From Deroplatys truncata (taxonomy: Eukaryota > Arthropoda > Insecta > Mantodea > Mantidae): a DNA stretch of 64,000 nt. Made by a program: the position numbers and the translations under genes. A model generated the notes under the pieces. The model had not been told where the DNA came from. It did not search any database and saw only the letters and a program-made list of their open reading frames with translations. The DNA lies in assembly GCA_030765065.1 (NCBI GenBank), contig CM060985.1, positions 177,756,096 to 177,820,095 on the forward strand, written 5' to 3'. This document shows positions 3,294-64,000 of the stretch, one piece after another. Each line of letters starts with the position of its first letter. Position 1 is the first letter of the stretch.

Positions 3294-3385
3294 AAAAAAA
3301 ATCTGATGTGATACATTCACATTACTTTCCCTACCCTCTATCGTTTTTAGTGGGTACACAAGGTATTTTTACTTAAGCTTATTAC
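3294..3385 (+). repeat. Family A terminal fragment
   Basis: A run of A followed by TCTGATGTGATACATTCAC and the CTTTCCCTACC inverted-repeat region. It breaks into an opposite-strand copy after about 90 bp. Confidence 0.65.
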
Positions 3386-4203
3386 TCACTCTAATACGTA
3401 TAGTAAGTAGAATATTACATTTCACCTAAAAGTTTGATGTTGAGATTTCACCAGAAATGCATGTTTTGAAGCCCCATAATGCAAAAAGGCCCGTGTGTCT
3501 GTCTGAGAACAGCGTAACTCAAAAAGGAAAAGTCCGATAAATACCAAACTTGGTATTTAGGTTCAGTATCTTTAAAAGATGCGATAAGAAGATTTTCAAG
3601 AAAATCCCCCCATTCCAGACTACCCTTTACATGGAACATTTTTCGAAGTTTTGTTTTCTCTCAGAAATGGCACTAACGATTTTAATCAAAGTATCATATT
3701 TTGGACACTTTAATGGCAAATGAAAGGCATATCTAGAACTTTCTAGGAATGTCTCCAAAGGTCGCCTTCATTCTGAATGAGTTTTGCATAACTGGTAAAC
3801 CGTAAGAGATAGACAAAATTTTATGTCACATACAATTTATGTCATATACATTTTTTGTGTGCAGTGAACCTTTGCGAAATATTCCTTGTTATTTGTTTGA
3901 ATTTTCCAATACTTAATACTTTTTCTCAAATGGGAATTCGTTATTCATTTTGTTTTTCTTTCTTTTCTTTTTGCATGTCCTGGACATACACAGAGAATGG
4001 AATGCGCCACATAGCAACCAGTTCTTAAAACATTTGACTCTCGCTTAAAGCCTACCATATTGCCCTTGCACCTACAAGGAAATTAGCAATAAGATAATTT
4101 CTGAAAATGTTAATCTCAATTAAATAGATGGAGAATAAGCGTTTGTACAAATAGTTTGTACAGGAGTAGAGAAAGTCGTGTGAATGTATCACATCAGATT
4201 TTT
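3386..4203 (-). repeat. Family A repeat, near complete
   Basis: It begins with a diverged end (TAATACGTATAGTAAG), contains the full body, and ends GTAGAGAAAGTCGTGTGAA...CACATCAGATTTT. The next copy begins at once, in the same orientation. Confidence 0.8.
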
Positions 4204-5115
4204 ACTTTCTCTACTACGTATAGTAAGTAGGGGAAGTATTGTATTCCACCCAAAAATTCGATACCCAGATTTCACCGGAAGTATATATGTTTTGAGACCC
4301 CCGGAGTCCAAAAAAAGCATTTTTGGAAGCATGTCCGTGTGTGTGTCTGTGCGTCTGTTTGTCTGTGTGGCTGTCTGTCTATGTGTGTGTCTGTGAACAG
4401 CATAACTCAGAAACGAACAGTCGGATAAACACCAAACTTGGTATTTAGGTTCAGTATCTTCCAGAGATGCGACAAGAAGGTTTTCAAGAAAATCCCCCAC
4501 CGCAGATTACCCTTTACGTGGAACATTTTTCGAAAACTTTAATTTTCTCAATACTGGCTCTAACAATGTTGATTAAAATATCATATGTTTAAGATATTCT
4601 CATGACAAATAAATCGTATATCTTAATTTTTTGGGAATGTCTAAAAAGTATTCATTGTGAACGGGTTGTGCATAACTGGTAAACCATAAGAGATAGACAA
4701 AATTGTAATACACAAAAATGCAGATGGCGTTAAAATACACAATTTGCCATATACATTTTTGTTGTTGAGTGAACCATTTTCGAGATATTGCTTGTTATTC
4801 CCTTAAATTGTTCAATACTTACTTTCTCAAATGGGAATTCGTTATTCATTTGTATTGGATATGCAAAGAGTATTAGTCTGTTGCAAAAATAATGGTGCTG
4901 CACATAGCAACCAGCTATTAAGAGTAATGTCTACGCTTAAGGGCTACTATATTTCTATATTGCCCTTGTAACTATATATTCCCCTTATATCTATAAGAAA
5001 ATTAGCAATAAGATAGAGTCTGCAAATGTTTATCTCCACTAGCATGAAGTAGATGGAGAATAAGCGTATGTAAAGAGTAGAGAAAGTCATGAGAGTGTAA
5101 CACATCAAATTTTTT
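4204..5115 (-). repeat. Family A repeat, complete, head-to-tail with the previous copy
   Basis: It runs from TACTTTCTCTACTACGTATA to GTAACACATCAAATTTTTT. Both 11-bp inverted repeats, the (TG)n tract with CTGTCTGT variants and the conserved body are present. Confidence 0.85.
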
Positions 5116-7010: not shown

Positions 7011-7157
7011 TTTACTTTGTCTACTACGTATAGTAAGTAGGGTAAGTATTGTATTCCACCCAAAAATTCGATACCGAGATTTCACCGGAAAGACATGTTT
7101 TGAGACCCTCTGAATCCAAAAAAGGTATTTTTGGAAACATGTCCGTGTGTGTGCGTT

Positions 7158-7207
<50 letters not shown>

Positions 7208-7625
7208 TCTGTGTGTGAACAGCATAACTCAGAAACGAACAGTCAGATAAACACCAAACCTGGTATATAGGTTCAGTATCTTCCAGAGATGCGACACGAA
7301 GCTTTTTTTTTGTTGAGTGAACCGTTTTCGAGATATTGCTTGTTATTCCCTTAAATTTTCCAATACCTATACTTTTTCTCAAATGGAAGTTCGTTATTCA
7401 TTTTTTTTGTCCTGGATATACAAATAGAGTGGAATACTCCACATAGCAACCAGCTCTTAAAATATTTGACTATCGCTTAAAGCCTACCAATTCCCCTTGC
7501 ATCTACAAGAAAATTAGCAATAAGATTAACATCTCGATTAACATGAAGTAGATGGAGAATAAGCGTTTGTAAAAATAGTTTGTACAAGAGTAGAGAAAGT
7601 CATGCGAGCGCAACACATCAGATTT
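7011..7625 (-). repeat. Family A repeat with internal deletion
   Basis: Both ends are present (TACTTTGTCTACTACGTATA... and ...AACACATCAGATTTTTTTT) and the (TG)n tract is long, at 7140-7218. The segment from the AAAATCCCCCCA block to the TTTGTTGAGTGAACC block is gone, so the copy is about 0.6 kb. Confidence 0.85.
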
Positions 7626-11257: not shown

Positions 11258-12996
11258 TTTACTTTCTCTACTACGTATAGTAAGTAGGGGAAGTATTGCA
11301 TTCCACCCAAAAATTCGATACCGAGATTTCACCGGAAATACACGTTTTGAGACCTCCTGAATCCAAAAAAAGCATTTTTGGAAACATGTCCGTGTGTGTA
11401 TCTGTGTGTGTGTGTCTGTGTGTGTGTCTGTGAACAGCATAACTCAAAAACGAACAATCGGATACGCACCAAACTTGGTATTTAGGTTCAGCATCTTCCA
11501 GAGATGCGACACAAAGGTTTTCAAGAAAATCCCCCCACCCCAGACTACCCTTTACATGGAAGATTTTTCCAAAATTTTAATTTTCTCAAAAATGGCTCTA
11601 ACGATTTTGATGAAAATATCATATGTTTAGGGTAATGTCATGACAAATGAAATGTATATCTCGAATTTTCTGGGAATGTCTCCAAAAGTATTCTTCATCG
11701 TGAACGACTTTTGCATAACTGGTAAACCATAAGAGATAGACAAAATTTTACTACACAAAAAATGTAGATCGCGTTAAAATACACAACTTATGTCATATAC
11801 ATTTCTTTTGTTGAGTGAACCGTTTTCGAAATATTGCTTGTTATTTCCTTAAATTTTCCAATACATACTTTTTCTCAAATTCGTTGTTCATTTTTACTTT
11901 CTCTACTACGTATAGTAAGTAGGGGAAGTATTGCATTCCACCCAAAAATTCGATACCCAGATTTCACCGGAAATACATGTTTTGAGACCTCCTGAATCCA
12001 AAAAAAGCATTTTTGGAAACATGTCCGTGTGTGTGTCTGTGTGTGTGTGTGTGTCTGTGTGTGTGTGTGTGTCTGTGAACAGCATAACTCAAAAACTAAC
12101 AGTCGGATAAACACCAAACTTGGTATTTACGTTCAGTATCTTCCAGGGATGCGACACGAAGATTTTCAAGAAAATCCCCCCACCCCAGACTAATCTTTAC
12201 ATGGAACATTTTTCGAAAATTTTAATTTTCTCAAAAATGGCTGTAACGATTTTAATGAAAATATCATATGTTTAAGATAATGTTATGAGAAATGAAATGT
12301 ATATCTCGAAATTTCTGGGAATGTCTCCAAAAGTATTCTTCATTATGAACGACTTTTGCATAACTGGTAAACCATAAGAGATAGACAAAATTTTACTACA
12401 CAAAAAATGTAGATCGCGTTAAAATACACAACTTATATCATATACATTTTTTTTGTTGAGTGAACCGTTTTCGAGATATTGCTTGTTATTTCCTTAAATT
12501 TTCCAATACTTATACTTTTTCTCAAATTCGTTATTCATTTTTTTTATGTCCTGGACATAAAAATGGAATGGAATGCGCCACATAGCACCCAGCGATAAAA
12601 TATTTGACTATCGCTTAAAAGCTACCATATTCCCCTTGCATCTACAAGAAAATTACAAATAAGATTGACATCTCGATATCTCGATTAATATGAAGCATAT
12701 GGAGAATAGTCGTTTGTAAAAATATATTGTACAAGAGTAGAGAAAGTCATGTGAGTGTAACACATCAGATTTTTTTTATGTCCTGGACATGCAAAGAGAA
12801 TGGAATGTGTCACATAGCAACCAGCGTTAAAATATTTGACTATCGCTTAAAATCTACCATATTTTCCTTGCATCTACAAGAAAATTACCAATCTCGATAT
12901 CTCGATTAACATGAAGCATATGGAGAATAGGCGTTTGTAAAATTAGGTTGTACAAGAGTAGAGAAAGTTATGTGAGTGTAACACATCAGATTTTTA
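11258..12996 (-). repeat. Family A repeat, outer member of a nested pair
   Basis: It begins TACTTTCTCTACTACGTATA at about 11262 and is broken after TTCGTTGTTCATTTT (11892). It resumes at 12776 with TTTTATGTCCTGGACATGC and ends GTAGAGAAAGTTATGTGAG then CACATCAGATTTTT. Confidence 0.85.
11893..12775 (-). repeat. Family A repeat, inner member of a nested pair, complete
   Basis: 883 bp with both ends intact, (TG)n tract at 12025-12075 and the full body. It is inserted in a T-run of the outer copy with no duplication beyond T. It is a good reference copy. Confidence 0.9.
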
Positions 12997-21968: not shown

Positions 21969-22752
21969 TTTATTACTTTCTCTACAACGTATAGTAAGTA
22001 GTGGAAGTGTTGTATTCCACCCAAAAATTCGATACCTAGATTTCACTAGAAATACATGTTTTGAGACCCCCTGAATCCAAAAAAAGCATTTTTGGAAATA
22101 TTTCCATGTGTGTGTGTCTGTGAACACCATAACTCAGAAACGAACAGTCGGATAAACACCAAACATGGTATTTAGGTTCAGTATCTTCCAGAGATGCGAC
22201 ACGAAGGTTTTCAACAAAATCCCCCCACCCCAGATTACGTCTTCCATGGAACATTTTTCGAAAATTTTAACTTTCTCTAAAATGTCTATAACAATTTTGA
22301 TTAAAATATCATGTGTTTAATATATTTTCATGACAAATAAAATGTATTTTTCTGGAAATGCCTCCAAAAGTACTCTTCATTGTGAATGACTTTTGCATAA
22401 CTGGTAAACCATAAGAGATAGACAAACTTTTACTACACAAAAATGTAGATCGCGTTAAGATACACAATTTATATCATATCCCTTAAATTTTCCAATACTT
22501 TTTCTCAAATAGGAATTCGTTATTCAGTTTTTTACGTACTGTGCATGCAAAGAGAATAGATAGCGCCACATAGTAACCAGCTATTAAAACATTTGACTCG
22601 CTTATAGCCTACCATATTCCCCTTGCACCTACAAGAAAATTAGCAATAAGATTAACATCTCGATTAACATGAAGCATATGGAGAATAAACGTTTGTAAAA
22701 ATAGTTTGTACAAGAGTAGAGAAAGTAATGTGAATGTAACACATCAGTTGTT
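21969..22752 (-). repeat. Family A repeat, near complete
   Basis: It starts TACTTTCTCTACAACGTATA, has a short TGTGTGTGTC tract, and ends GTAGAGAAAGTAATGTGAAT then CACATCAGTTG. Confidence 0.85.
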
Positions 22753-27935: not shown

Positions 27936-29460
27936 TACCTGAAGTGTTATATTCACATGTCTTTCTCTACTCCTATTAGTGGGTATACAGTCTATTTTTA
28001 GCGACAGTCAAATGTTTAACAACTGGACGCTATATGCTGGCCTTAAAATTCCATACTGTTTCCATGACATCGCGAGATACAACTGAATGTTGAAAGGGCT
28101 TCAAAGGATGATCAAGAAATGAACAATACAAAACTTTAAAAGCGAATATCTCAGAAATGGCTTATGCCACACATTATTTGAAATAAATTGTGTCTTTTAA
28201 CGACATATAAATTTTTACTTTCTCTACCACGTATAGTAAGTAGGGGAAGTATTGTATTCCACCCAAATATTCGATACCGAGATTTCATCGGAAATACATG
28301 TTTTGAGACCCCCTGAATTAAAAGAAAGCATTTTTGGAAACATGTCCGTCTGCGTGTCTGTGAACAGCATAACTCAGAAACGAACAGTCGGATAAACACC
28401 AAACTTGGTATTTAGGTTCAGTATTTTCCAGAGATGCGACACGAAGATAACTCCTTACATGGAATATTTTTTTTGAAAATTTTAATTTTCTCAAAAATGG
28501 CTATAACGATTTTCATTAAAATATCATATATTTAAAGATACTTTCATGACAAACGAAGTGTATATCTCGAATTTTCTTGGAATGTCTCCAAAAGCATTCT
28601 TAATTGTGAACGACTTTTGCATAACTCGTAAACCATAAGAGATAGACAAAATGTTACTGCACAAGAATGTAGATCGCGTTAAAATACACAATTTATATCA
28701 TATACATTTTTTTTGTTGAGTGAACCAATTTCGATATATTGCTTGTTATTCCCTTAAATTTACCAATAACTTTTGAAAAATGGGAATTCGTTATTATTTA
28801 TTTACGTCCTGGATATACAAAGAGAATGGAATGCGCCACAGAGCAACCACATCTTAAAAGATTTGACTATCGTTTAAATAGTATCATATTCCCCTTGCAC
28901 CTACAAGAAAATTAGCAATAAGATTAACATCTCGATTAACATGAAGCATATGGAAAATAAGCGTTTGTAAAAATAGTTTGTACAAGAGTAGAGAAATTCA
29001 TGTGAGTGTAACACATCGGATTTTTTGTGTAGTACGTTTTCGTCTATCGCTTAACGTTTAACAGTTATACAAGGTTATACAAAATTCCACCCAATGAAGA
29101 CTTCATACACTATTCCCAAAAAATTCAAGATATACATTTTGTCATTAAATATCTTTGCTATATGGTATTTTAACCAATATCGTTACAAGCATTTTTAGAA
29201 AATAAAAATTGTCGAAAGATGCCCCATGTAAACGGTAGCTACGGGTGGGGGGATTTTGTTTGAAAATCTTCGTGTCGCATCTTTGGAAGATATTGAACCT
29301 AAATACCAAGTTTGGTATTTATCCGAATTTTCTTTTTTAGTTACGCTGTTCACAGACACACGGACATGTTTCCAAAAGCCTTTTTTGGATTAACGTGACC
29401 TAAAAACATGTACTTCCGGTGAAATCTTGGTATCAAATTTTTAGGTGGAATACAAGTAAA
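27936..29460 (+). repeat. Old family A copy split by a young one
   Basis: 27936-28212 (GTGTTATATTCACATGTC...) and 29026-29460 (TTTTGTGTAGTACGTTTTCG... to the GGTGGAATACAAG end) form one diverged plus-oriented copy. Confidence 0.7.
28213..29025 (-). repeat. Family A repeat, complete, young
   Basis: It runs from TACTTTCTCTACCACGTATA to GTAGAGAAATTCATGTGAG and CACATCGGATTTTTT. The TG tract is unusually short (GTCTGCGTGTCTGTG) and part of the CCCCCCA block is deleted. Confidence 0.88.
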
Positions 29461-30885: not shown

Positions 30886-31417
30886 TTACTCTCACTACTA
30901 CGTATGGTATGTAGGGGAAGTATTGCATTCCACCCAAAAATTCAATACCGAGATTTCATCGAAAATGCATGTTTTGAGGAACCCTGAACCCAAATAAACT
31001 TTTTTGGAAACATGTACGTGTGTGTCCCGTATATTTATGTGTCGATCTGTGAACAGCATAACTCAAAAACGAAAAGTCGGACACAAAGATTTACAACACA
31101 ATTACTGCACCCTTTACATGAAACATTTTTGGGAATATTTTTATTTTCTCAAAAATGGCTCTAACCATTTTAATTAAAATACCATATGTTTAAGATATTT
31201 TATGGCATATGAAATGCATATCTTGAATTTCCTGGGACTGTCCTCAAAAGTCCTCATTCCGAATGACTTTTGCATAAATGGTAAAGGGTAAGAGATAGAC
31301 AAAATTTTTGTTGTTGGGTGAACCATTTCCGAGATATTCCTTGTTATTTGTTTGAATGTTCCAATATTTATACCTTTTCTCAAATGAGAATTTGTTATTC
31401 CCTTTTTATTCTTCCTT
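30886..31417 (-). repeat. Family A repeat, interrupted
   Basis: It starts CTACTACGTATGGTATGTAG, carries the body through ATTCCCTTTTTATTCTTCC, and is broken by another copy at 31418. Confidence 0.7.
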
Positions 31418-31988
31418 TTACTTTCTCTACTACGTAAAGTAAGTAGGGGAAGCATTGTATTCCACCCAAAAATTGGATACCGAGATTTCAGCGGAAATAC
31501 ATGTTTTGAGACCTCCTGAATCCAAAAAAAAAGCATTTTTGGAAACATGGCCGTGAACAGCATAACTCTAAAACGAACAGTCGGATAAACACCAAACTTG
31601 GTATTTAGGTTAAGTATCTTCCAGAGATGCAACACGAAGGTTTCAAGAAAATCCCTCCATACCAGATTAACCTTTATATTGAACATTTTTCAAAAATGTT
31701 ATTACTTGTTATTTCCTTAAATTTTCCAATACTTTTTCTCAAATGGGAATTCGTTATTCATTTTTTATGTCCTGGACATGCAAAGAGAATGGAATACTCC
31801 ACATAGCAACCAGCTCTTAAAACATTTGACTATCGCTTAAAACCTACCAATTCCCCTTGCATCTACAAGAAAATTAGCAATAAGATTAACATCTCGATTA
31901 ACATAAAGCATATAGAGAATAAGCGTTTGTAAAAATAGTTTGTACAAGAGTAGAGAAAGTCATGTGAGTGTAACACATCAGATTTTTA
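31418..31988 (-). repeat. Family A repeat with internal deletion
   Basis: It starts TACTTTCTCTACTACGTAAA and ends GTAACACATCAGATTTTT. It has no (TG)n tract (reads GGCCGTGAACAGC) and lacks about 300 bp of body after CAAAAATGTTATTACTTG. Confidence 0.85.
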
Positions 31989-33610: not shown

Positions 33611-34545
33611 CTCTTTTTACTTTCTCTACTACGTACAGTAAGTAGGGAAAGTATTGTATTCCACCCAAAAATTCGATATGGAGATTTCACAGGAAATACA
33701 TGTTTTGAGGTGCGCTGAATGCATATAAAGCATTTTCGGAAACATGCCTGTGTGTGTGTGTGACTGTAAATAGCATAACTCAGAAACGAACAGCCGGATA
33801 AACACCAAACTTGGTATTTAGGTTCAGTATCTTCCAGAGATGCGACACGAAGGTTTTCAAGAAAATCTCCCCACCCCAGATTACCCTTTACATGGAACAT
33901 TTTTCTAAAATTTTTATTTTCTCAAAAATGGCTCTAATGATTTTGATTAAAACATCATATGTTTAAGATATTTTCATGACAAATGAAATGAATATCTCGA
34001 GTTTTCTGGGAATGCCTCCAAAAGTATTCTTCATTGTGAACGACTTTTGCATAACTGGCAAACCATAAGAGATAGACAAAATTTTGCTACAAAACATGTA
34101 GATTGCGTTAAAATACACAATTTATGTCATATACATTTTTTTGTTGTTGAGTGAACCATTTCCGAGATATTGCTTGTTATTAAATACTTATTTTCTAAAA
34201 TGAGAATTCGTTATTAATTTTTTTGTCTTGGATATGCAAAGAGTATTAATCTGTGGCAAAGAGAATGGTGCTGCACACAGCAACCAGCTATTAAGAGATA
34301 TGTATGTGCTTAAGGATAATGTATTTCTATATTGCCCTTGCAATTACAAAACAAGGGGAACATAGTACGCCTTAAGCGATAGTAAAATATTTTTAGAACT
34401 GGTCGCTATGTGTAAAATATAATTCTCGTTGCATGTCTAAACATCGTTTCTGCAAATGTTTATTTCGGTTAATATGAAATAGATGAAGAATAAGAGTTTG
34501 TACAGGAGTAGGGAAAGTCATGTGAGAGTAGCACATCTGATTTTT
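33611..34545 (-). repeat. Family A repeat, complete, fold-back subtype
   Basis: It runs from TACTTTCTCTACTACGTACA to GGAAAGTCATGTGAGAGTAG then CACATCTGATTTTTT. At 34255-34440 it has the internal palindrome seen at 2880-3045 (CAGCAACCAGCTATTAAG ... CTGGTCGCTATGTG). Confidence 0.85.
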
Positions 34546-37534: not shown

Positions 37535-37743
37535 GTCCACAGTAAGCTATAGACATTAATGACCGATAGGGATATATAGGTCCTCGCTCCATCGATGAGT
37601 TCCGTTGCCAAGATCGTGTAGCGGAGCGGGCACGGGGTTTCCTTCGTCCCATCTCTCGAGCAAAGACCGAAGACCGCGAACTAGGCATGAGATATTCCAC
37701 AATTTATAGCTCACCTCAAGGTCAAAACTGCCACAGTGGGTCT

Positions 37744-38400: not shown

Positions 38401-38402
38401 TT

Positions 38403-39270
38403 GTTACTTTCTCTACTACGTATAGTAAGTAGGGGAAGTATTGCATTACACCCAAAAATTCGATACCGAGATTTAACTGGAAATATATGTTTTGAGACCT
38501 CCTGGATTCAAAAAAAGCATTTTTGGAAACATGTCCGTGTGTGTGTGTGTGTGTATGTGTGTGTGTGTCTGTGTGTCTGAGAACAGCATAACTCAAAAAC
38601 GAACAGTCGGATAAGCACCAAACTTGGTATTTAGGTTTAGTATCTTCCAGAAATGCGACACGAAGGTTTTCAAGAAAATCCCCCCCACCCCAGACTACCC
38701 TTTACATGGAAGATTTTTCGAAAATTTTAATTTTCTCAAAAATGGCTCCAACAATTTTGATGAAAATATCATATGTTTAAGATAATGTCATGATAAATGA
38801 AACATATATCTCGAATTTTCTGGGAATGTCTCCAAAGGTATTCTTCATTGTGAACGACTTTTGCTTAACTGGTTATCCATAAGAGATAGACAAAATTTTA
38901 CTACACAAAAAATGTAGATCGCGTTAAAATACACAACTTATGTCATACACATTTCCTTTGTTGAGTGAACCGTTTTCGAGATATTGCTTGTTATTTCCTT
39001 AAATTTTCCAATACTTATACTTTTTCTCAAATTCGTTATTCATTATTTTTATGTCCTGGACATGCAAAGAGAATGGAATGCGCCACATACCAACCAGCGT
39101 TAAAACATTTGACTATCGCTTAAAAGCTACCATATTCCCCTTGAATCTACAAGAAAATTAGCAATAAGATTAACATCTCGATTAACATGAAGCTAATGGA
39201 GAATAAGCCTTTGTAAAAATAGTTTGTACAAGAGTAGAGAAAGTCATGTGAGTGTAACACATCAGATTTT
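38403..39270 (-). repeat. Family A repeat, complete, young
   Basis: It runs from TTACTTTCTCTACTACGTAT to GTAACACATCAGATTTTT. The TG tract is at 38537-38577. It lies at the broken end of the Penelope-like ORF. Confidence 0.9.
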
Positions 39271-41734: not shown

Positions 41735-42496
41735 TAGAAGACTGAGCAGGGACCTTGATATTTCACAAATCACTGTATGACATATCTTATGCTGTACCCT
41801 GAAGATACCTACTCCGGTCTAACATCCAGACACTGCACAAGCTGCAACCTGAGGTTTTCGCAGCTCGACAAGCTATGTGGTTTGACTTGTTACCGCAGTC
41901 GAAAATGAAAACTGATGAGCAATGTGCCGTTTAGTGATGAAACAATATACATGTGGTCACGTGAACATTTGTAGGATTTGGGCAGAATAACAGCCAAATA
42001 TGATCCAAGACCGGCAACGGGCCTCATCAAACGTAAATATCTGGGTGGGGATGAAGAAAACAAACATTTACGGGCCTTTTATGTTCGCAGAGCGATTAAT
42101 TACATGGAATACCTACTTTGACACGGTACAACAATTTTGGCACCGCAGGTGGAAGAGGATGGAATAACAAACAACGTTAATTTCCAGCAAGATGGGGCAC
42201 CAATTCATTTTGTCTTAATTATAAGAGAATACCCCAATTGCTGCTATCCAAAAAACAGGTGGATTGGTCCTGGCTAACAGAGAATCTTGTCACCCTGCTT
42301 TCCAGACCTTATGCCCTTAGACTTGTTCTTCAGGAAGTTAATTAAATATAAGGTGTATCTAACACGGATCAGTACCCTAACAGCAGCAGCATCAGACGAG
42401 GTCGGGCCTGCTATGCTGAACAAAGTGTTCCTGTCTATGGAACAAAGTTGGAGGCTCTGCCAAGACTTAGAGGGCAACCATATTGAAATGCACTAA
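41735..42496 (+). pseudogene. Tc-like transposase, degraded
   Basis: Fragments: LDISQITV near 41756 (helix-turn-helix), then weak matches around the first acid near 41930, FQQDGAPIHFVLIIREYPNC at 42183-42242 (second acid), RWIGPG, and SPCFPDLMPLDLFFRKLIKY near 42290-42345 (third acid in PDLMPLD), ending HIEMH. This is the arthropod transposase type whose core ends SPDLTPLDFFLWG and whose tail has GGHIE. At least five frameshifts or stops. It belongs to the TIR element that encloses it. Confidence 0.75.
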
Positions 42497-44982: not shown

Positions 44983-45063
44983 AAACAACATGTAGGTTCC
45001 ATTATAAAAAATCAAATTGTCCCTAAAATGACGATCACAACGTCCTGGAAATAAACAATCTGG

Positions 45064-45882
45064 AGTGTTACACTCTTGTACAAACTATTTTTACAATCGC
45101 TTAATCTCCATATGCTTCATGTTAATCGAGATGTCGATCTTATTGCTAATTTTCTTGTAGATGCAAGGGGAACTGGTAGGTTTTAAGCGATAGTCAAATA
45201 TTTTAAGAGCTGGTTGCTATGTGAAGTATTCCATTCTCCTTGTATGTCCAGGACAAAAAAAATGAATAAAGAATTTGAGAAAAAGTATAACTATTGGAAA
45301 ATTTAAGGGAATAACAAGCAATATCTCGAAAATGGTTCACTCAACAACAAAAAGGTATATGACATAAATTGTCTATTTTAACGCGATCCACATTTTTTGT
45401 GTAGTAAAATTTTGTCTATATCTTATGGTTTACCAGTTATGCAAAAGTCGTTCACAGTGAAGAACACTTTTGGAGACATTCCCAGAAAATTCGAGATATA
45501 CACTTTATTTGTCATGGAAATATCTTAAACATATGATATTTTAATCAAAATCGTTAGAGCCATTTTTGAGAAAATTAAAAGTTTCGAAAAACGTTCCATG
45601 TAATGTGTAATCTGGGGTGGGGGGATTTTCTTGAAAATCTTTGTGTCGAATCTCTGGAAGATACTGAACCTAAATACCAAGTTTGGTGTTTATCCGACTG
45701 TTCGTTTCTGAGTTATGCTGTTCACAGACACACACACGGACATGTTTTCAAAACTGTTTTTTTTTTTTTGGATTCAGTGAGTCTCAAAACATATATTTCC
45801 AGTGAAATCTCGGTATCGAATTTTTGGGTGGAATACAATACTTCCCCTACTTACTCTACGTTGTAGAGAAAGTAAAAAAAGA
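45064..45882 (+). repeat. Family A repeat, near complete
   Basis: It starts TCTGGAGTGTTACACTC, where a short deletion removes the first inverted repeat, and ends TACGTTGTAGAGAAAGTAA. It is inserted in the long-TIR element; comparison with the 20.0-kb and 43.7-kb sequences gives the empty site. Confidence 0.88.
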
Positions 45883-48415: not shown

Positions 48416-49252
48416 AAAAAAACTGATGTGTTACAATCACATGACTTTCTCTACTCTTGTACAAACTATTTTTACAAACGCTTATTCTCCAAATGCTCCA
48501 TGTTAATCGAGATGTTAATCTTATTGCTAATTTTATTGTAGATGCAAGGAGAATTGCTAGCCTTTAAGCGATAGTCAAATATTTTAAGAGGTGGTTATAC
48601 TATGAGGAGTATTCCATTCTCTTTGCATGTTCAGAACATAAAAAAATGAATAATGAAGTCCCATTTGAGTAAAAGTCTTGGAAAATTGAAGGGAATAACT
48701 AGCAATATCTCGAAAATGGTTCACTTAACAAAAAAATGTACATGACATAAATTGTAAATTTTAACGCGGTCTACATTTTTTGTGTAGTAAAATTTTGTCT
48801 ATATCTTATGGTTTATCAGTTATGCAAAAGTCGTTCACAATGAAGAATACGTTTGGAGACATTCCCGGAAAATTCAGGATATATATTTCATTTGTCATGA
48901 AAATATCTTAAACATATAATATTTTAATCAACATCGTTAGAGCCATTTTTGAGAAAATTAAAATTTACGAAAAATGTTCCATGTAAAGAGTAATCTGGGG
49001 TGGGGGATTTTCTTGAAAACCTTCGTGTCGCTTCTCTGGAAGATACTGAATCTAAATACTAAGTTTGGTGTTTATCCAACTGTTCCTTTCTGAGTTATGC
49101 TGTTCACAGACACACACACGGACATGTTTCCAAAAATGCTTTTTTGGATTCAGGGGGTCTCAAAACATATATTTCCGGTGAAATCTCGGTATCTAATTTT
49201 TGGGTGGAATACAATACTTCCCCTACTTGCTTTACGTAGTAGAGAAAGTAAA
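48416..49252 (+). repeat. Family A repeat, complete
   Basis: It runs from AAACTGATGTGTTACAATCA to TTTACGTAGTAGAGAAAGTAA (split TTTACGTAGTAGAG, AAAGTAA). Another copy's left end begins four bases later. Confidence 0.88.
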
Positions 49253-55437: not shown

Positions 55438-56314
55438 AATCTGATGTGTTACACTCACATGACTTTCTCTACTCTCTACTATTTTTACAAACGCTTATTC
55501 TCCATATGCTTCATGTTAATCGAGATATCGAGATGTCAATCTTATTGATAATTTTCTTGTAGATGCAAGGGGAATATGGTAGCTTTTAAGCGATAGTCAA
55601 ATATTTTGACGCTGGTTGCTATGTGGCGCACTCCATTCTCTTTGCATGTCCAGGACATAAAAAAAATGAATAACGAATTTGAGAAAAAGTATAAGTATTG
55701 GAAAATTTAAGGGAATAACAAGCAATATCTCGCAAACGGTTCACTCAACAAAAGAAATGTATATGACATAAATTGTGTATTTTAACGCGATCTACATTTT
55801 TCATGTAGTAAAATTTTGTCTATCTCTTATGGTTTACCAGTTATGCAAAAGTCGTTCATAATGAAGAATACTTTTGGAGACATTCCCAGAAAATTTGAGA
55901 TATACATTTTATTTGTCATGACAATATCTTAAACATATGATATTTTAATCAAAATCGTTAGAGCCGTTTTTGAGAAAATTAAAATTTTCGAAAAATGTTC
56001 CATGTAAAGGGTAGTCTGGGGTGGGGGGATTTTCTTGAAAACCTTCGTGTCGCATCTCTGAAAGATACTGAACCTAAATACCAAGTTTGGTGTTTATCCG
56101 ACTCTTCGTTTTTGAGTTATGCTGTTCACAGACACACAGACAGACACACAGACACACAGACACACAGACAGACACACACACGGACATGTTTCCAAAAATG
56201 CTTTTTTTGGATTCAGTGAGTCTCAAAACGTGTATTTCCGGTGAAATCTCGGTATCGAAATTTTGGGTGGAATACAATACTTCCCCTACTTACTATACGT
56301 AGTAGAGAAAGTAA
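55438..56314 (+). repeat. Family A repeat, complete, young (plus-orientation reference)
   Basis: It runs from TCTGATGTGTTACACTCAC to CTATACGTAGTAGAGAAAGT and AA. Both 11-bp inverted repeats are perfect, and the CA/CAGA tract is at 56131-56180. It sits directly in the tail of SINE family 4. Confidence 0.92.
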
Positions 56315-56361: not shown

Positions 56362-56935
56362 GCAGTTAGACTGGACGGCAACCTAACGACATCTGCATGG
56401 CACGAAGCATGGCATGCGCTGGGGGTCCCTGTGGGCACGCGATGAAGCAAGATGGCATTTCCAGGGATGAGACCTGGAAGGCCAGCTGCCTTTCTGTATT
56501 GGGGCGGCGGTTAGACTGGACGGCACCCTAATGTCATCCGCACGGCATGAAGCAGGGGTTACAGGGATGAGACCTAGAAGGCTAACTGTCCGCCTTTCTT
56601 TGTGAGGGCGGCGGTTAGGCTGGACGGCACACTAATGCCATCTGCACGGCATGAAGCAGGTGGTTACAGGGATCAAACCTAGAAGGTTAACTGTCCACAA
56701 TCTGTGTATGAGGGCGGCGGTTAGACTGGACGGCACCCTAATGCTATCTGCACGGCATGAAGCAGGTGGTTGCACGGATGAGACCTAGAAGGCCAACTGT
56801 CCGTCTTTCTGTGTGAGGACGGCGGTTAGGCTGGACGGCACACTAATGCCATCTGCACAGCATGAAGCAGGTGGTTGCACGGATGAGACCTAGAAGGCCA
56901 ACTGTCCGTCTTTCTGTGTGAGGACGGCGGTTAGA
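56362..56935 (+). repeat. Tandem array, about five units of 104-106 bp
   Basis: TTAGACTGGACGGCA or TTAGGCTGGACGGCA recurs at 56511, 56615, 56721, 56826 and, truncated, 56931. A longer, diverged unit starts at 56366. Each unit also has GGCATGAAGCAG, GATGAGACCTAGAAGG and CTGTCCG. The units are GC-rich and very similar to each other. The array ends exactly at Tc1-like sequence. Confidence 0.92.
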
Positions 56936-57448
56936 CTGACTGTGGTGAGCACAGCGTGGAGGGCTGCATTGTTGAGCGGCATAGCGGACAAACACCAGGT
57001 GTGATGGTTTGTAGCGCCATTGGTTACAACAATCGATCTCACCTCCTACGAATTGAGGGCACTTTGAACAGCAACCGTACATAACGTGGTTGTAGAGCCT
57101 GGGGTACTCCCTCTGCTTCGGGCATCTGCACAGGTCACATTTCAGCAGGACAATGCCCGACCGCATACTGCGAGGAATGTACAAGCCTTGTAAGAAGAGC
57201 GACGGATACCATTGCTTCCCTGGCCTGCACGTACGCCTGACATATCGCAGATTGAACGTGTCTGGGATATGGTTGGTCGGCACTTGGTGTGTCATGGTCC
57301 TCCAGTATCCAATGTCACGGATTTGTGGGCTCCAATACTAACTGCGTGGAGGAAAATTCCTCAGGAACGTATTCAGAACCTTTTTGGTTCAATGCCACAG
57401 CGTATAACAACTCTAATTGCAGTGCATGGAGGCCACACCAAATACTGA
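56936..57448 (+). pseudogene. Tc1-like transposase, catalytic-domain remnant
   Basis: Shifting frames give GYNNRSHLLRIEGTLNSNRT at about 57018-57078, then ISAGQCP/QQDNARPHTARNVQ near 57145-57190 (second acid), and a 79-codon open end from 57212: LPWPARTPDISQIERVWDMV (third-acid region), WRKIPQERIQNLFGSMPQRI, and the terminal GGHTKY with stop. This is the standard end of Tc1-like transposases. The first acid and the DNA-binding domains have been replaced by the tandem array. Confidence 0.82.
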
Positions 57449-58050
57449 ATATTAGGGTTCAAAGGTCATGTATAGATTTGAATATTTTATCCTCTGTTAC
57501 TTGTCATGTATCTAGCCTGGGGTATTAAATTCATTGAATTCACGCGTTTCCTTCTTGGTGTTGCAATTTTTACAAACGGCAGTGTATTTTCTCGGTATCA
57601 ATTTTTGAATGGAGTGCAATGCATTACGTACGTGGTAGATAAAGTAAAGAAAGTAAATACCAATGTAGGGCCCTTTAAAGCACACCATTTATGCCAACTA
57701 TCTTTCCTTTTCTTTTTGGTTTGTTTGCGGCGTTAGCCATTTCCGAGATATTCTTTCTGATTGGTTTTAATTTTCACACACTTATACTTTTCCCAATTGG
57801 GAATTCATTCCTTTTTCTCTCGTGCTCTTACAAAGAGAATGGAATTTCAAATCCAACACATAGCGACCAGCTCTTAAGAGATTTGACTATAGCTTACACC
57901 TTCTTTATTCTTCTAATCCTCTATAAGTCAATGTATAGATAATAAAACCTAGTCTGCAAAGCTTTATCTAAATTAACAAGAACTACATAAAAAGAAAGTT
58001 TGTAAGAATAGTTTATGGAAGGATGGGTGGAGAAAACCATGTGAATGTCA
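57449..58050. repeat. Old family A sequence
   Basis: 57540-57645 is a right end (GGTATCAATTTTTGAATGG, ACGTACGTGGTAGATAAAG). 57646-58050 is old body with CATAGCGACCAGCTCTTAAG and a weak GGTGGAGAAAACCATGTGAA end. Confidence 0.55.
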
Positions 58051-58439
58051 CATTTTTCCCTCTAAATAGCTAAATGATGTGTGTTTATGTGAACCCAAAA
58101 TTAAACTTTTTTCTCGCGTACCTTCATAGTTTAAGTCCCTCTTGTTATAGAGGTATTCATATGGAATGTTTGAACATAGCATGTAGCAGTAACTAGGTGA
58201 CGTACCGGCTCGTTATTCTTCTGATCTATTGCAAACAACCATGAACACAAAGGCGATAGGAGAGTCCTAAGAGACGCATTTTTAAAGTAAATGTCGCTTT
58301 AATATTTTGCCGCTGCAGTCTCTATTTTCAGCATGCGCGATCACTATCTACATTCATTAGGAAGCGGGCGCAGCTGTGAGTGATCGTTACTTTGTGTTTT
58401 CCTGTTGTTAGAGTGTTTTATAATGTTCGAAATAATCTC
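58051..58439. other. Unassigned sequence, possibly mariner 5' flank
   Basis: No match until the mariner reading begins near 58440. Confidence 0.35.
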
Positions 58440-59835
58440 TGAAGCAGATCGGTGATTCGTTTTTTGAACGTGAGAGGTATTACGCCAAAAAACATTCATA
58501 GCGAATTGTGTGAGGTTTATGAGGAAACAATAAGTGACAATGCCCGGCCACACACAATCAAACAAATTCAAGATTTCATCTCATTAGATTTGATTGGAAA
58601 CAATTCGACCAACCACCCTACAGTCCGAATTTGGCCCCAAGCGTTTTTCAACTGTTTCTTCATCTGAAGAAAACATTTCAAGGATGATTTGGCGTTCATC
58701 AAAGTGAAGTGGAATTGTTCTTTACGTTGTTTGCTGCTGCGTATGAAAAGCCGATTTGAAGTAGGAGTCCTATTATATTTCAACTGTTGGGGAGCCGAAC
58801 TTAAAATTCTTTGCAACCACACGTATAGTAAACAGTTTCCGGTAGCCTTCGCCCCAAATGTATTTTCAGGTGGCCTTTGCCCCAAGTTTAAAAAAGTATT
58901 AACTTTGTAATTAAACTGTTTCTTTAAATATCTAATATTTATGTTTGTCTCGGCTGCGTTAGTATTATTCTAGAGACATGGGTATCTTGGCAGGGCGTGA
59001 TGCGACAAGAATGTAGGCTTACACAGAGTATTATTTTACTTCACTACTACTGATATAGAGAGCTGAAAGATTCTTTTTATTAATTAATTACAGTTTTTAA
59101 CACATAAACTTCATTTTCGTCTCACACAAATACGTATTAATACTCTCGAGGACGCACAAGCAACGCATTCAGTTATGAGCACTATCTGCAGGCAACTTAA
59201 CTGTTTTCCACCGTTTAACTTGTAAATTTCTGTATTTCAAGTCTCTGATTGGCTATTTTTACTCCAATAGAATACCTGGATTTAACTAAAGTTTATTTTC
59301 TGGTTGTTGATTGGCTATTTTTATAAACTGTCACTAAATTTTTTTTATTTCTTCCAAGAATCACAAGTACTATTGTTAAACTCTCAAAATCATTGTTACC
59401 TCAAGGTTACCTCATTGTTAGCAACGTTTAACTTATTATTCTCACAGCTCCTACATTATTAAATTACGTAATACATTCACATTACATTATTACACATGGA
59501 TACAATAATATAAACAGATACAATGACTGTAATATACACTCTTTATATATTGTTACATACACATATTACTTTAAGGCGGGCTGTTAGTGAATTTACATAT
59601 TATATAATCAGACTGAAATTATTTAAGTGTTAAAAATACTGCTTCAAGAGTCGTCACCATTCTTTGACGAAGGTATACAAATAGGCTTTCTCGTTACATG
59701 TGGCTGAATAATGGAGGATTATATAGAGCAGTTGTGTAGTGATAAAAAAGATTTGGAAAATAATGTTTGTTTTTATACAAAAATATATCGGTACTTCAAA
59801 ATCTCGCCTCGTATAAAAAGTGCTCGCACAGTACC
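58440..59835 (+). pseudogene. mariner transposase with internal deletion, split by a solo LTR
   Basis: RFLNVRGITPKNIHSELCEV at 58457-58516 (first helix-turn-helix) is joined directly to SDNARPHTIKQIQDFIS (second catalytic Asp region), so the middle of the protein was lost. Then QPPYSPNLAPS-like, FLHLKKTFQG sequence runs to 58704. After the LTR the frame type resumes at 59647 with FFDEGIQI near 59661-59684 and EDYIEQL near 59719, the normal mariner ending. Two frameshifts or more. The LTR boundaries agree with the transposase break. Confidence 0.8.
58705..59646 (-). mobile_element. Solo LTR, copy 6
   Basis: 942 bp, minus-strand TGAAGCAGTATT to CCACTTCA. It is flanked by AAAG and AGAG (3 of 4 match). 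Mariner coding sequence continues on both sides, which independently fixes the ends. Confidence 0.8.
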
Positions 59836-60045
59836 GTGCTGTAACTCTTGAAAGATTGTCAATCGAATTCTGTTACCACCCTTCTAGGATGATCATGTAC
59901 CAGGTGGCCCAACCGCGCCGCATTTCAAGTGCGTAGATACCCCTTCGTGCGTTGCAGAGCTCAAGAGGGCAATTCAAAATACACACGGGTCAATAGGCAA
60001 CTGGCGAATCAACGTGTGCTAGCTTCGCTTTTTTTTCTGAAACTT
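59836..60045. other. Unassigned, less AT-rich sequence
   Basis: Includes CAACCGCGCCGCATTTCAAG. No match found. Confidence 0.3.
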
Positions 60046-60315
60046 CCCTTTATAACCCGCCTTTAACTACAATGGTCGTATCGGCGTCCTTTCCTTTGGA
60101 ACATATTATTGCCTATAGGCAATGGGTTTATAGTAACCTTTGGACTCTAATCATTAGAATCACACATACACACCCACATTCATACGTCCAGACTCTGAGG
60201 AGGATTGGGAATAATCTTGGCTAGAGAAAAATGTCCATTCTCCAGCCAGGAATCAAAACCGAGACCCTTCGCACAGCAGAAATGTGCTCCACTTACTGAA
60301 CTACGGGGCCAGCTG
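60046..60315 (-). repeat. SINE family 2, copy 2
   Basis: The minus strand starts CAGCTGGCCCCGTAGTTCAG with a damaged box B (GGTTTTGATTCC) and ends GGTTATAAAGGGAAGTTTC. It aligns throughout with 7636-7920. Confidence 0.78.
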
Positions 60316-60820
60316 AGCTAGGTTGTATTCCTCTTCCTTATCAGCAAAAATGATAGCGAATCGTGTTCATAAGAAGCGCTTCCCAGGCTTACAATAAAGT
60401 GCACAGTCCGTGATAATAGACAAAAACAGACCGAAAAGTTCTTAGTATATTTTCCACTTCAGGTACAGAAGCTTTATTTTCGAGGAATAAACTTAGTTTT
60501 TAGACTGACAAACAATTAATATATCTTTATTTAACTTATTCGTATCCGCCCTTATCTATTCCTTTTATTGCGTTTATAGTATTTTTGTCTAACATTACGG
60601 ACTATAAGCATCAAACATGAGAGCTCGTAGTGTTTCATTGCCATTTTTTCGGTTGCTATTATAAATTTTATTGATACTATTGTTATTATCATCTAACGGT
60701 ACTGTTATCCTGACTTCGCTCATCGAATAGGTGTTTGAAATTTGCCCCTGTTGATTGATACGATGCTCCAACCGCCTCTGTGCATTATCCATATGCATGT
60801 TTCTCAGACCCTGGTGCAGT
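60316..60820. other. Unassigned sequence with one minus-strand frame
   Basis: A 67-codon minus-strand frame (60595-60798) begins MHMDNAQRRLEHRINQQGQI and is polar and Asn-rich. Its product is not recognised. It could be a remnant of the N-terminal region of some element protein, or chance. Confidence 0.25.
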
Positions 60821-60954
60821 AGTAGTGGTAGTTAAGTGCGTTAACGCGCCAGTTTCCCACTGACCCACGTTTACTTGGAATTGCCCCGTTGAGTTCTGCA
60901 ACTCTGTTAACGCACGAAGGATTATCTGCACACGTCAAATACGGCGTGGTTGGT

Positions 60955-61040
60955 CCATCTGGTATAAATAGATTTTACAGTGTGGTCGGCTTTAAGTCCG
61001 TGTTGTGGAGCTTCAAGTTACAGTCTGGCTAAATTAGGCC
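60955..61040 (+). promoter_or_regulatory. Candidate RNA polymerase II promoter or retroelement 5' region
   Basis: GGTATAAATAGATTTTACAG at 60960-60979, in a locally GC-richer stretch, about 400 bp ahead of reverse transcriptase sequence. No downstream intact gene supports it. Confidence 0.3.
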
Positions 61041-61209
61041 TTTAACGTATATTGTTTTCTTTACAGGAGGATTTTGAAACGGCAGCAGGAGAATCCGAGG
61101 CAAACGTCTAATGTTCGTATCATCAGGATTATAGTGAGTCTCCACCAGTAATTGTGGTATGTATATTATGTTAGATTGTTCATTTAGCTGCTATTAATTA
61201 TCAGCTAAA

Positions 61210-62602
61210 GTAAAGCATTCATTGAAGCTGGTATTTCGGTTCCCTTATTTATTAATATTAGGTCACCTTTTCAAATAATTTGAAGTATCTTAAGAAATAT
61301 CTTAGTAAATCAAAAATGGTTATATATATCCCTGTGAATTTCAGCATAAAATAGACCAAAATACAATAACTGAATCTAAATCGGCCAGTAGAGGTGTTCC
61401 TCAAGGATGCATTTTATCGCCACTGTTGTTCAATTTATTCATAGACGATATAGCAGACGTGTTTATAGCAGAGAAAATTAATGGCCCAAAAGTAGACGAT
61501 GTCTGCATTCCTGTACTTTTTTTTTACGCTATTGACATGACAATTTTGTCAGTGACGATAGAAGGCTTACAGAAAGGTATTAACAAGTTGGAAGAATATT
61601 GTAAACAATGGAGTTTGGTGGTAAACGTTAACAAAACAAAAACAATGGCTTTCAAAAATGGCTATTTGTATGGTAGGAATGAAAAATGGTATACAAGGGG
61701 CTAGAACTACAAAGCGTTAAACATTTCTCCTATTTAGAAGTAATGTTTAATATGAGATGAAAATGTAAGAAACATCTATCAGTAACTAACTATAAAGCAC
61801 GAGGGCAGTTAAATGGATTATTACGTACCCTCTCGCGGATACCGGATATACCTGTAGATACATTAGAAAAGATGTATAACTCTATGATAAGGCTGATTTT
61901 GTTATACGGAAGTGAAATCTGGGGATAGGAAAGAGCAGAGCATATAAATAAAACACAGGTAGCATTTTGGAAAATAGTTCTTGGAGTTTCACAAGGCACA
62001 TCAAATTCGGGGGTACTGAGGGAGGTGGGATGTTATGAAGACACAATACACTGTAACATAAATGTTATAAGTACCAGCAAGAAAACCTGTCTCCTAAGTT
62101 TTGGGCATCTGATTTGGATAGGGGTTTGAGGAGAATAGGAATGGGGTCAGTATGGCAAAGAGCTGAAACAAATGACAAAAATACATAGAAAGGTGTCAAG
62201 ATAAGACTAAGAGACATCAACCAACAGGAAATAGATTCGAATTGTAAAATTAAACCTTCTCTAAGTCTAGTAAATGAAATAAAATTGAATTGGGGTAAAG
62301 AGGCATATATACTTAACTTAGGAAAAAAGAAAGTATCAGAAATGGCATGGTTTAGACTGGGGGGCTGGAGGGCGCAGAAAATCACTGGCGATTCTGGCAG
62401 GAGAATCTGCCCATTCTGTGATTTGGATGAGGACTGGGTACATATTTTGGCGAAATGTGCACAGTGGGAGAACCAGCGAACAATTAAACTGAAAGAAAAC
62501 TTCTTAAGTCCCTCAAGAAAGAGGATGGCATGTTGGGGTCTATTGGCTGACCAGAGGAACTGGAAAAACGTGGGCAATTTCTTGGCCAAAGTGTTCAGTT
62601 AG
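61210..62602 (+). pseudogene. Non-LTR reverse transcriptase ORF2, C-terminal half, degenerate
   Basis: 61370-61704 reads SASRGVPQGCILSPLLFNLF, IDDIADVF and EGLQKGINKLEEYCKQWSL, VVNVNKTKTMAFKNG. The catalytic box is YAID (61530-61541) instead of YADD, so the first Asp is Ile. 61705-62280 is full of stops with LREVGCYE-like traces. 62285-62602 is open again: KVSEMAWFRLGGWRAQK, then CPFCDLDEDWVHILAKC, a CX2CX7HX4C knuckle typical of ORF2 C-termini, and a stop after FLAKVFS. Different family from the fragments at 53-55 kb. The sequence to about 62870 may be its 3' UTR. Confidence 0.82.
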
Positions 62603-62959
62603 TCAAAGATAATTTATTTCTATTTTCCCCTTTCTTGTTCTTTTTTGTATTGTTTTCTTTTTCTGTTGCTTATTTTGACACCATACCTGTATCTTAAATA
62701 TGCATGTACGGTCAATGACCTATGCACTAAATACTTGTGTAATAACTTCAATAATTTGAAACCAAAAAAGATACCTTATCTATCCACCTACAAACTTCAG
62801 GGGTTGCTTCCTAGCTGGAAATTGAACACAAAAGTTTATATCACCTTGTGATTACCCACATCATACATCAATTGGAGCCAGTTTTCGGCGTTTGTGTGAC
62901 CATGGGTCCTTTGAGACAGACGAACGTAAGCTAAACGACGGTTATCTGCATCCTACATT
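62603..62959. other. 3' flank of the reverse transcriptase, otherwise unassigned
   Basis: A/T-rich with no frame of interest. Somewhere here it passes into the Tc-like pseudogene. Confidence 0.35.
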
Positions 62960-63665
62960 ACAACCGCTATTAACCCTATGACCTCCAACGTGTGCAGGGA
63001 TTATCACTGGCGAATTTTCCTCCATGGATATATTCCGTCGCAGGTTTGTGCAACAGGCCATCACCATTATGCAATTTCCGTCTTCAGTCCTCTTCGCGCA
63101 TTAAGTGACCTTTGGTAGAGATGACATCATTAACCTGCAAAATTGTAATCTGTGGGTTACAGAAAATGCTCACAGAATTGTGGAAGCGTATCATCAGTAG
63201 CGGTTATTGTTTGGGCAGGAATTATTGACAACCACCTACTTAGACCAGTTCTTTCACAAGACGTGATCTGAGAAGCGTATTTGGTCTTCCTGCAACACAC
63301 TCCGCTCTCATTGCTGGAGAATGTGTCTTTGGCAATGTGACTGCAGCATGATGTTGTACCAGCCCACTTCTGCATTAATGTTCGCCGACACCTCAACAAT
63401 ATCTTCTCCAGACGTTGGATTGACCGTGAAATTCCTCGATTACCGGTCTTAAACTCCGTGGATATTTACTTGTGGGGGAATCTGAAAAGCATTGTGTACG
63501 GTGAGCCCATCCTTGACATTCAGATCCTTCAACAGAGTATCCATATAACCTATGACGATATTCGGATAGTCTGGAACATTCGAACGAGTGGGGAAGTCCA
63601 TGATGCGACATATAAACGCACGCACAGCATCCCATGAAGGGCACTTTGAACATCTGTTGTGATGT
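62960..63665 (+). pseudogene. Tc-like transposase, degraded
   Basis: Shifting frames give NLQNCNLWVTENAHRIVEAY at 63134-63195, GIIDNHLLRPVLSQDVI near 63221, LPLSLLENVSLAM-like and LQHDVVPAHFCINVRRHLNN at 63345-63405 (second acid, normally QHDGAPAHF), RRWIDREIPRLPVLNSVDIY and LWGNLKSIVYGEP near 63413-63505 (third-acid region), and EGHFEHLL at the end. It matches the arthropod transposase type ending GGHFEHLL. It is related to, but clearly different from, the transposase in the 40.4-kb transposon. More than five breaks, and no inverted repeats found. Confidence 0.75.
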
Positions 63666-63796
63666 GGATGAGGCTTAGGCCATGTAGTGTGTGCTAGAGC
63701 CCTCTGTTTGATGTCGTTTTTCAATGCCATCTGCCGTGGAAACTATGCATTTCCGCACAAAACGTGATATGAGCTTCTGTGTTCCATTTCCAGTCA

Positions 63797-64000
63797 GTAA
63801 TTACCCCACCCCAGATTACCCCTTGCATAGAACATTTTTCGAAAATTTTAATTTTCCAAAAATGGCTTTAACGATTTTGATTAATATATCATATGTTTAA
63901 GATATTGTTATGAGAAATGAAATGTATATCTCGAATTTTCTGGGAATGTCTCCAAAAGTATTCTTCATTGTGAACGACTTTTGCATAACTGGTAAACCGT
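63797..64000 (-). repeat. Family A repeat, internal part, runs off the window
   Basis: CACCCCAGATTACCCCTTGC, TTCGAAAATTTTAATTTTCC and onwards to ATAACTGGTAAACCGT. The (TG)n end is missing at its left, so it is truncated or was broken before 63797. Confidence 0.8.

Follow-up and report, generated by a model that had tools for sequence, protein, structure and literature searches.

A HINE family of a mantis genome, its probable Helentron partner and nesting at an internal T-run

Among described systems, the HINEs and Helentrons of the mite Metaseiulus and of Culex (Thomas, Vadnagara and Pritham 2014; PMC4067079) are comparable to the family reported here. As described there, a subTIR lies 2-4 nt from the 5' end, a subterminal 3' copy of it is followed by a palindrome, and insertion is into T-rich target without detectable target-site modification. 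The Helentrons of that account carry Rep, a Pif1 helicase and an AP-type endonuclease, and their derivatives share their ends. These traits recur here, the palindrome as a candidate hairpin that is weak by energy. The 3' subTIR of the present family, however, lies 24 nt from the 3' end, compared with 38-60 nt in the mite HINEs, and an inverted repeat beside the 5' subTIR is present here as in DINE-1, whereas PMC4067079 gives it as absent in mite HINEs. In comparison with the HINEs of that account, the present family is further distinguished by more than 118,000 exact 3' ends and by frequent self-insertion.

Drosophila DINE-1 (Yang and Barbash 2008; PMC2374699) likewise combines a subTIR with a partial inverted repeat beside it, 3-22 bp from the 5' subTIR, and shares with the present family a GTCY-rich microsatellite and insertion between Ts; its stem-loop just after the 3' subTIR has a candidate counterpart here. 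Its subTIR is described as 13 bp long and of other sequences, in contrast to 11 bp here, and we saw no counterpart of its central repeat array. The order of DINE-1 parts is given as 5' subTIR, nearby partial inverted repeat, GTCY-rich microsatellite, 3' subTIR and stem-loop (PMC2374699, PMC4067079), and a like order of ends is printed for oyster HINEs (PMC7492417).

FoHeli of Fusarium oxysporum, an element of Helitron2 type (PMC5148889), resembles the present family in its asymmetric inverted repeats, in self-insertion and in units where several 5' ends go with a single 3' end, which are explained there by use of the leftmost 5' end together with the first 3' end. In that account FoHeli is without an endonuclease domain, unlike the partner element described below; the duplicated 5' piece is typically shorter than 200 bp, compared with about 612 here; and "a number of" cases are mentioned, whereas here there are thousands of junctions. 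Helraiser/Helibat (PMC4778049) shares rolling-circle transposition, as proposed for the present family, and a 3' hairpin, which in Helraiser is the terminator and can be bypassed, as was shown there. Unlike the present family, Helraiser is a canonical Helitron with 5' TC, 3' CTAG and an A^T target, and no endonuclease is named in the account. Plant arrays in which many 5' ends accompany a single 3' end were attributed to a different mechanism (Xiong et al., cited in the review PMC12628747), and head-to-tail junctions are mentioned in PMC5876387.

Here we analysed a window of 64,000 nucleotides, the whole stretch under study, which is part of contig C11 in an assembly of 4,289,915,091 bases. 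We are highly confident that the repeats in question are a HINE family probably moved in trans by a Helentron of about 10 kb in the same genome; nested elements appear to be moved from an outer 5' end to an inner 3' end.

Orientation and end structure of the element

A sequence check at 55438-56314 found all the pieces named by the first-pass annotation, namely the ends, the 11-bp repeats, the palindrome and the CA/TG tract. This named copy holds TCTGATGTG, with ACTTTCTCTAC 22 nt inside the TC and GTAGAGAAAGT 2 nt from the opposite end, and it contains both the palindrome CTACTTACTATACGTAGTAG and the CA/TG tract. The proposal of a non-autonomous, Helentron-like rolling-circle element is supported, as a Rep/helicase element with the same ends is present in the same genome. 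Its orientation has to be reversed: the TC at the left end, read as a Helitron 5' TC, belongs to the true 3' end, and GTAA at the right end, taken for a variant 3' terminus, marks the true 5' end. From the 5' side, there are TT, the 11-bp subTIR, a partial inverted repeat and a GTCY-type microsatellite; at the 3' end there are the subTIR, a short hairpin and CAGATT. The parts of the named copy are as follows.

55438..56314, minus strand: named copy, a whole HINE, with its 5' end at 56314 and its 3' end at 55438
56313..56314, minus strand: 5' terminal TT
56302..56312, minus strand: 5' subTIR ACTTTCTCTAC
56279..56289, minus strand: inverted repeat GTAGGGGAAGT, which could pair with the 5' subTIR at 9 of 11 places
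56127..56186, minus strand: microsatellite, of GTGT/GTCT type on the element strand
55462..55472, minus strand: 3' subTIR GTAGAGAAAGT, 24 nt from the 3' end
55444..55460, minus strand: 3' hairpin, ATGTG-7 nt-CACAT, 6 nt from the 3' end

Read on the complement of the strand used in the first-pass annotation, the consensus is TT-ACTTTCTCTAC, 12 nt, GTAGGGGAAGT, the microsatellite, and finally GTAGAGAAAGT, CATGTGAGTGTAACACAT and CAGATT. The 11-bp subTIR of the consensus thus lies 2 nt from the 5' end, and its 3' copy extends from 35 nt to 24 nt before the 3' end; the partial inverted repeat, 12 nt from the 5' subTIR, is complementary to it at 9 of 11 positions, and the GT/GTCT microsatellite, variable in length, occupies consensus positions ~133-150 near the 5' end. 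Canonical Helitron marks (5' TC, 3' CTRR, A-T insertion) were not found at the ends of the family. We assign the element to the non-autonomous Helentrons (HINE, DINE-1 type).

The predicted 5' fold is more stable than expected, with 1 of 300 shuffles as low for the consensus and 4 of 300 for the named copy. Across the 23 5' ends its helix is paired in 88.9% of cells, compared with 44-60% when the pairing is slid; covariation in these 23 5' ends did not exceed that of shuffles, so there is no covariation signal. For the 3' hairpin, 54 of 300 composition shuffles were as stable, and both arms, ATGTG and CACAT, are intact in 13 of 21 3' ends.

These counts rest on 23 5' ends and 21 3' ends in the window. 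The first list had 23 and 24, from which the 3' ends at 15527, 48258 and 52350, without clear terminus, were dropped; the 5' end at 34652 had also been dropped and the 3' end at 49252 added before ends were counted. The 11-bp repeats ascribed to every full copy are present in the named copy, but the claim is too strong for older copies, the exact subTIR being kept in 14 of 23 5' ends and 12 of 21 3' ends. As to the claim of more than 25 copies, ACTTTCTCTAC occurs 26 times in the window (0.02 expected from shuffles), but these are half-sites, two per whole copy.

An HMM was built from 12 fuller window copies, some of them internally deleted, and has a consensus of 835 nt. These 12 copies are 78-94% identical in pairwise comparison and lie at K2P distances of 0.045-0.161 from their own consensus. 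The named copy, itself one of the building sequences, matches positions 1-834 of 835 (E 3e-288). The HMM marks 61 segments amounting to 23,916 of the 64,000 bases of the window (37%), copies in the window being found by construction because the profile was built from them; at E <= 1e-20 there are 40 segments and 32% of the window, and the reversed window, used as a control, gave 0 segments. The following further copies are referred to by position.

3382..4200, plus strand: whole HINE, head-to-tail directly before 4202..5111
4202..5111, plus strand: whole HINE
7012..7624, plus strand: HINE with an internal deletion
11259..12992, plus strand: outer HINE, split at consensus ~612 by 11894..12771, an empty-site pair inside the window
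11894..12771, plus strand: inner whole HINE in a T-run of the outer copy 11259..12992, same orientation
21973..22750, plus strand: whole HINE
28215..29022, plus strand: whole HINE, flanks matching one unbroken stretch of other HINE copies (second empty site)
30886..31984, plus strand: two 5' ends (30886, 31418) and one 3' end (31984)
33617..34542, plus strand: whole HINE
38404..39268, plus strand: whole HINE
45061..45875, minus strand: HINE without an ordinary 3' end
48420..49251, minus strand: whole HINE; the 3' end of a further copy (49252) adjoins its 5' end

Ends of another type (CTCTACC...GGTAGAG; AGAGGGTAGGGAAAG), whose subTIR core is similar, were observed at 5' ends 14096, 39912 and 50447 and at 3' ends 3300, 21888 and 39541; the last 60 bp of these three 3' ends show 67-68% identity to the consensus. 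They mark a sister subfamily. A tandem repeat of about 105 bp (4.6 copies, 87% matches) lies at 56465-56938 of the window, 150 bp past the named copy.

Abundance, target sites and the internal hot spot

An exact pattern of the 3' end occurs 118,569 times in the genome (59,419 + 59,150), and its backwards control 0 times. We sampled twenty random 3-kb stretches from 14 large contigs, a set without C11, C12 and the small contigs. The family was present in 10 of the 20 stretches (reversed control, 0) and made up 11,604 of 60,000 bases, or 19.3% (bootstrap 95% interval 8.9-31.6%), which is a coarse estimate of its genome share. The share in the window, 37% vs 19.3%, is therefore about twice the sample mean. 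Exact patterns of the family were not found in viral and prokaryote contigs in three scans. Contig C1 has, close to its beginning, a tandem array (C1:20305-122592) whose unit measures ~3,409 bp; each of six scanned units holds a whole HINE, and the five units compared with the first are 97.8-98.4% identical to it.

The true 3' end adjoins at least three T (at least three A at the left end as first read) in 19 of 21 cases, against a background of 4.3%, and the 5' end, the right end as first read, is preceded by at least three T in 12 of 23 cases, compared with 4.3% at a random place. The first-pass description of flanks as A/T only therefore applies to most copies, but not to all; both ends of the named copy deviate, having no T-run flanks. 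Its statement that there is no convincing target duplication stands for the nested sites examined, where no duplication was found beyond T-run length. The nested copy 11894-12771 is flanked by 9 T, where the uninterrupted copies compared have 6-8 T or a broken run. Its host 11259-12992 lies in a third copy, since its flanks match one uninterrupted stretch of other copies.

Genome-wide, we counted 17,746 places (8,820 + 8,926) in which a new 5' end comes after the T-run at consensus ~612, and an element in the opposite orientation at this T-run gave 0 exact matches. The same T-run is uninterrupted in 35,405 places, the long C1 tandem array included, and the other border, a 3' end followed by the consensus from 613 on, has 8,701 occurrences; all of these counts are lower bounds, each with its own loss, because only exact matches are included, and the places do not each represent a separate insertion, since composites may move and tandem arrays add further copies. 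T counts at the hot spot were made by eye in the first 100 places of each form. In the commonest listed forms, 5 T precede the inner copy and 7 T follow it; unoccupied sites have 7, so that occupation adds 5 T, or 4 if the TT at each end is the element's. Because the occupied hot spot has 12 T (5 + 7) against 7 in the unoccupied one, a short target duplication of Ts alone may occur at insertion sites, and the same uncertainty about T duplication is stated for mite HINEs in PMC4067079.

Chains of borders were examined in C1:14.40-31.16 Mb, which holds 93 of the 100 listed left borders and 47 of the 100 listed right borders, the rest lying outside the shared range. Of the 73 chains of left borders there, 18 are accompanied by an exact right border no more than 2.5 kb away, and 19 contain more than one left border; conversely, a left border lies upstream of 20 of the 47 right borders. 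Serial left borders are 608-671 bp apart in 16 of 20 steps and 451 bp apart in the other 4. Individual loci take several forms: at L090, three 5' ends go with a single 3' end and no remainder, and the three units there differ mutually by 3-8%; L030 has one 5' end and two 3' ends; and L091 is a proper nest with a diverged remainder, which escapes the exact patterns, so these patterns miss some remainders. In the window, no remainder of an outer copy was found in the 300 bp behind 30886-31984.

The partner Helentron and its composite form

The Pfam model PF14214 has at least 152 matches in the genome (291 candidates, of which 150 were scored) and 0 in 14 control genomes. Open frames reach 2,543 codons in one group of near-identical matches. 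The first-pass annotation had suggested a search for a Rep/helicase element sharing the ends of the family, and such an element was found in the same genome:

C10:233551797-233561775, minus strand: partner element of ~10 kb, with HINE-like ends and a long frame

Its 5' end corresponds to HINE consensus 1-703 at 90% identity, and it ends with the last 34 nt of the HINE at 94% identity; consensus 704-800 is absent from the partner. The long frame, of 2,387 codons, reads opposite to the orientation of the first-pass annotation and contains Helitron_like_N (4.5e-28), PIF1 (2.9e-28) and DUF6570 (1.2e-16), as well as a region of herpesvirus-tegument-type protease (PF04843, 1.3e-8). The C-terminal endonuclease is weak alone (PF03372, 0.059). 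However, residues 2146-2376 are 38.6% identical (2.9e-50) to a PF14529-bearing stretch of a spider relative, whose own PF14529 match (2.1e-5, 24.8 bits) is just under the Pfam cut-off of 27.4. One partner frame is thus predicted to carry Rep, Pif1 helicase and a C-terminal endonuclease, the endonuclease being recognised through relatives only. The PF04843 region is N-terminal in the partner protein (L063:35-7195, minus strand) and is annotated also in several of the listed relatives.

Among PDB sequences, the frame matches the Helitron transposase Helraiser (7lcc, 5.2e-22), over the helicase. At E 0.001 there are 262 relatives, and the best 120 include spider, snail, psyllid and hoverfly proteins. 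Motif 2 of the partner Rep is VEFQMRGSPHEH; it contains the S described in PMC4067079 as diagnostic for Helentrons. No RPA domain was found in the 2,387-codon frame, whereas an RPA reading frame is present in some Helentrons.

The 3' regions of three further partner copies are 99.5-99.7% identical to that of the C10 copy. An exact 42-mer of the partner 3' end has 39 genome occurrences; the 118,569 exact 3' ends of the HINE and these 39 do not give a copy ratio, because the patterns differ in length and age. For 35 of the 39, a listed Rep match lies 4.4-5.7 kb upstream on the same strand, with 60 of the listed Rep places used. In the window itself, the partner protein gave no match by tblastn over the whole length. 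Pfam found no partner domains in six-frame stretches 16260-21040, 22760-27736, 34660-38403 and 40360-45060 (both strands) or in 57000-64000 (plus strand only); stops were scanned as X, and eight long frames of the window were scanned besides. Loci L031-L050 stand apart: their Helitron_like_N matches score better and are mostly interrupted, and the 11-bp repeat of the family is present in only 1 of these 20 loci (~3.5 kb each); they are perhaps another Helitron lineage.

At C10, C4, C9, C8 and C5:94.8 Mb, HINE piece 1-612 lies in front of the partner, with the hot spot as the point of junction. Across these five loci the outer pieces share 97.9-99.8% identity with one another, and at the two loci compared they are 94.8% (C10) and 93.7% (C9) identical to the inner 5' end. 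The flanks differ among C10, C4 and C9, the loci with flank in the stretch read, and the partners at C8 and C5:94.8 Mb lie inside yet another HINE. The sixth of the six 5' ends read, at C5:31.08 Mb, is without the shared outer piece. A HINE remainder follows the partner 3' end at C10 and C8 (95.7% identical to each other), that at C8 likely belonging to its third, outermost HINE; no HINE segment was found behind the partner 3' end in the ~0.76 kb read at C4 and C9.

The exact junction of outer and inner element occurs 68 times in the genome. It lies upstream of 18 of the 29 listed partner copies with frames of at least 1,000 codons (C10:134013306, one of 30 such frames, was left out, its match covering the profile end only), so that HINE 1-612 plus Helentron is the commonest form among long-frame partner copies. 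It also lies upstream of 17 of the 39 exact partner 3' ends, the other 22 being without the exact junction, and 49 of the 68 junctions have none of the 40 typed Rep places 3-8 kb downstream. The simplest reading is that a Helentron inserted in a HINE and that the pair, from the HINE 5' end to the Helentron 3' end, moves as a unit. Five composite junctions in a row, in steps of ~1.27 kb, were observed at C12:216157320-216162445, perhaps a tandem array grown from the composite.

Competing explanations and other elements in the window

In the preferred reading, the protein of the partner would mobilise the HINE by nicking at its 5' end, and one strand would be peeled off by rolling-circle replication up to the 3' subTIR and hairpin and joined to a T-rich single strand. 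For a nested element, transfer that begins at the outer 5' end and stops at the inner 3' end would leave several 5' ends with one 3' end; alternatively, transfer could run past the inner 3' end to the outer 3' end. A canonical Helitron (Helitron1) in the orientation first read, with 5' TC and a variant 3' end, would account for the TC at the left end and for palindromes near both ends, but CTRR is absent, insertion is mostly at T-runs and not at A^T, and the partner frame runs the opposite way, with the Helentron S in its Rep motif (VEFQMRGSPHEH). Frame direction alone is no proof, because a Helentron with an inverted frame exists (PMC4067079), but here the layout of the ends agrees with it. 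We reject this reading as very improbable. Little more can be said for a cut-and-paste origin, in which the family would be a MITE of a DDE transposon and the T-run would hide a short duplication made of Ts only. Inverted repeats, small size and many copies would fit, and T-runs could conceal such a duplication; however, the repeats are asymmetric, both ends are shared with a Rep/helicase element, and a hot spot occupied 17,746 : 0 by orientation is unexpected for symmetric cut-and-paste. Judged from the repeats, the shared ends and the hot spot, this reading, too, is rejected and can hardly be correct.

A more serious, though still rather unlikely, alternative concerns the composites: serial 5' ends and lone 3' remainders might derive from unequal recombination or from circle replication without a terminator instead of nested transposition. 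Serial 5' ends with steps of 608-671 bp in 16 of 20 cases speak for it, and circle replication predicts arrays of many 5' ends with a single 3' end (PMC12628747). By contrast, the junction lies at one internal T-run and looks like those of ordinary insertions, the outer remainder is kept at some sites (11259-12992, L091), a unit with one 5' end and two 3' ends exists (L030), and the three units of L090 differ by 3-8%. Moreover, the same composite is found at five partner loci, with different flanks at C10, C4 and C9. Recombination between repeats or decay of the remainder could be another source of composites without a remainder. Nested transposition by the Helentron partner thus remains the reading that we prefer. 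Traces of the model in which an outer 5' end is paired with an inner 3' end, proposed from few Fusarium elements, are seen here genome-wide, and the one-sided polarity of the hot spot is a prediction of single-strand integration.

It is about an even call whether the family, by carrying its own preferred target in one orientation (the T-run at ~612), has generated new composites through self-nesting and outer-5'/inner-3' pairing, one of which is now the main autonomous form. If so, self-nesting would be an engine both of growth and of the formation of new lineages in a family that makes up maybe one-fifth of a 4.3-Gb genome, and would illustrate how far one HINE family may inflate a genome. 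In the open-licence literature, we recognised no account that describes this family, nor one in which the main autonomous form is a HINE-Helentron composite. To our knowledge, no cell assay for a Helentron has been published. This genome offers a partner with a long frame, more than 100,000 exact 3' ends and a built-in target that can be scored, and the model of one 5' end and the first 3' end, derived from few fungal elements, becomes testable in numbers.

Searches of the window with Rfam at the gathering cut-off and with ARAGORN gave no match. Among transposon scraps, there is a frame that we take to be gag-like, with a zinc knuckle, and a presumably mariner-like frame at 20298-20645 (plus strand), both without a Pfam match. 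Used as a host marker, the gag-like frame had no hit among 7,997 scored. In the scanned parts of the window, DDE transposons are present only as fragments (mariner-like). Pieces of DDE_3 and HTH_48 are present, in both cases under the Pfam cut-off, and so is a reverse transcriptase (PF00078). Besides 20298-20645, the positions of these scraps are 1-1245 (minus strand), 61309-61704 (plus strand), ~57150 and ~22880 (both plus strand).
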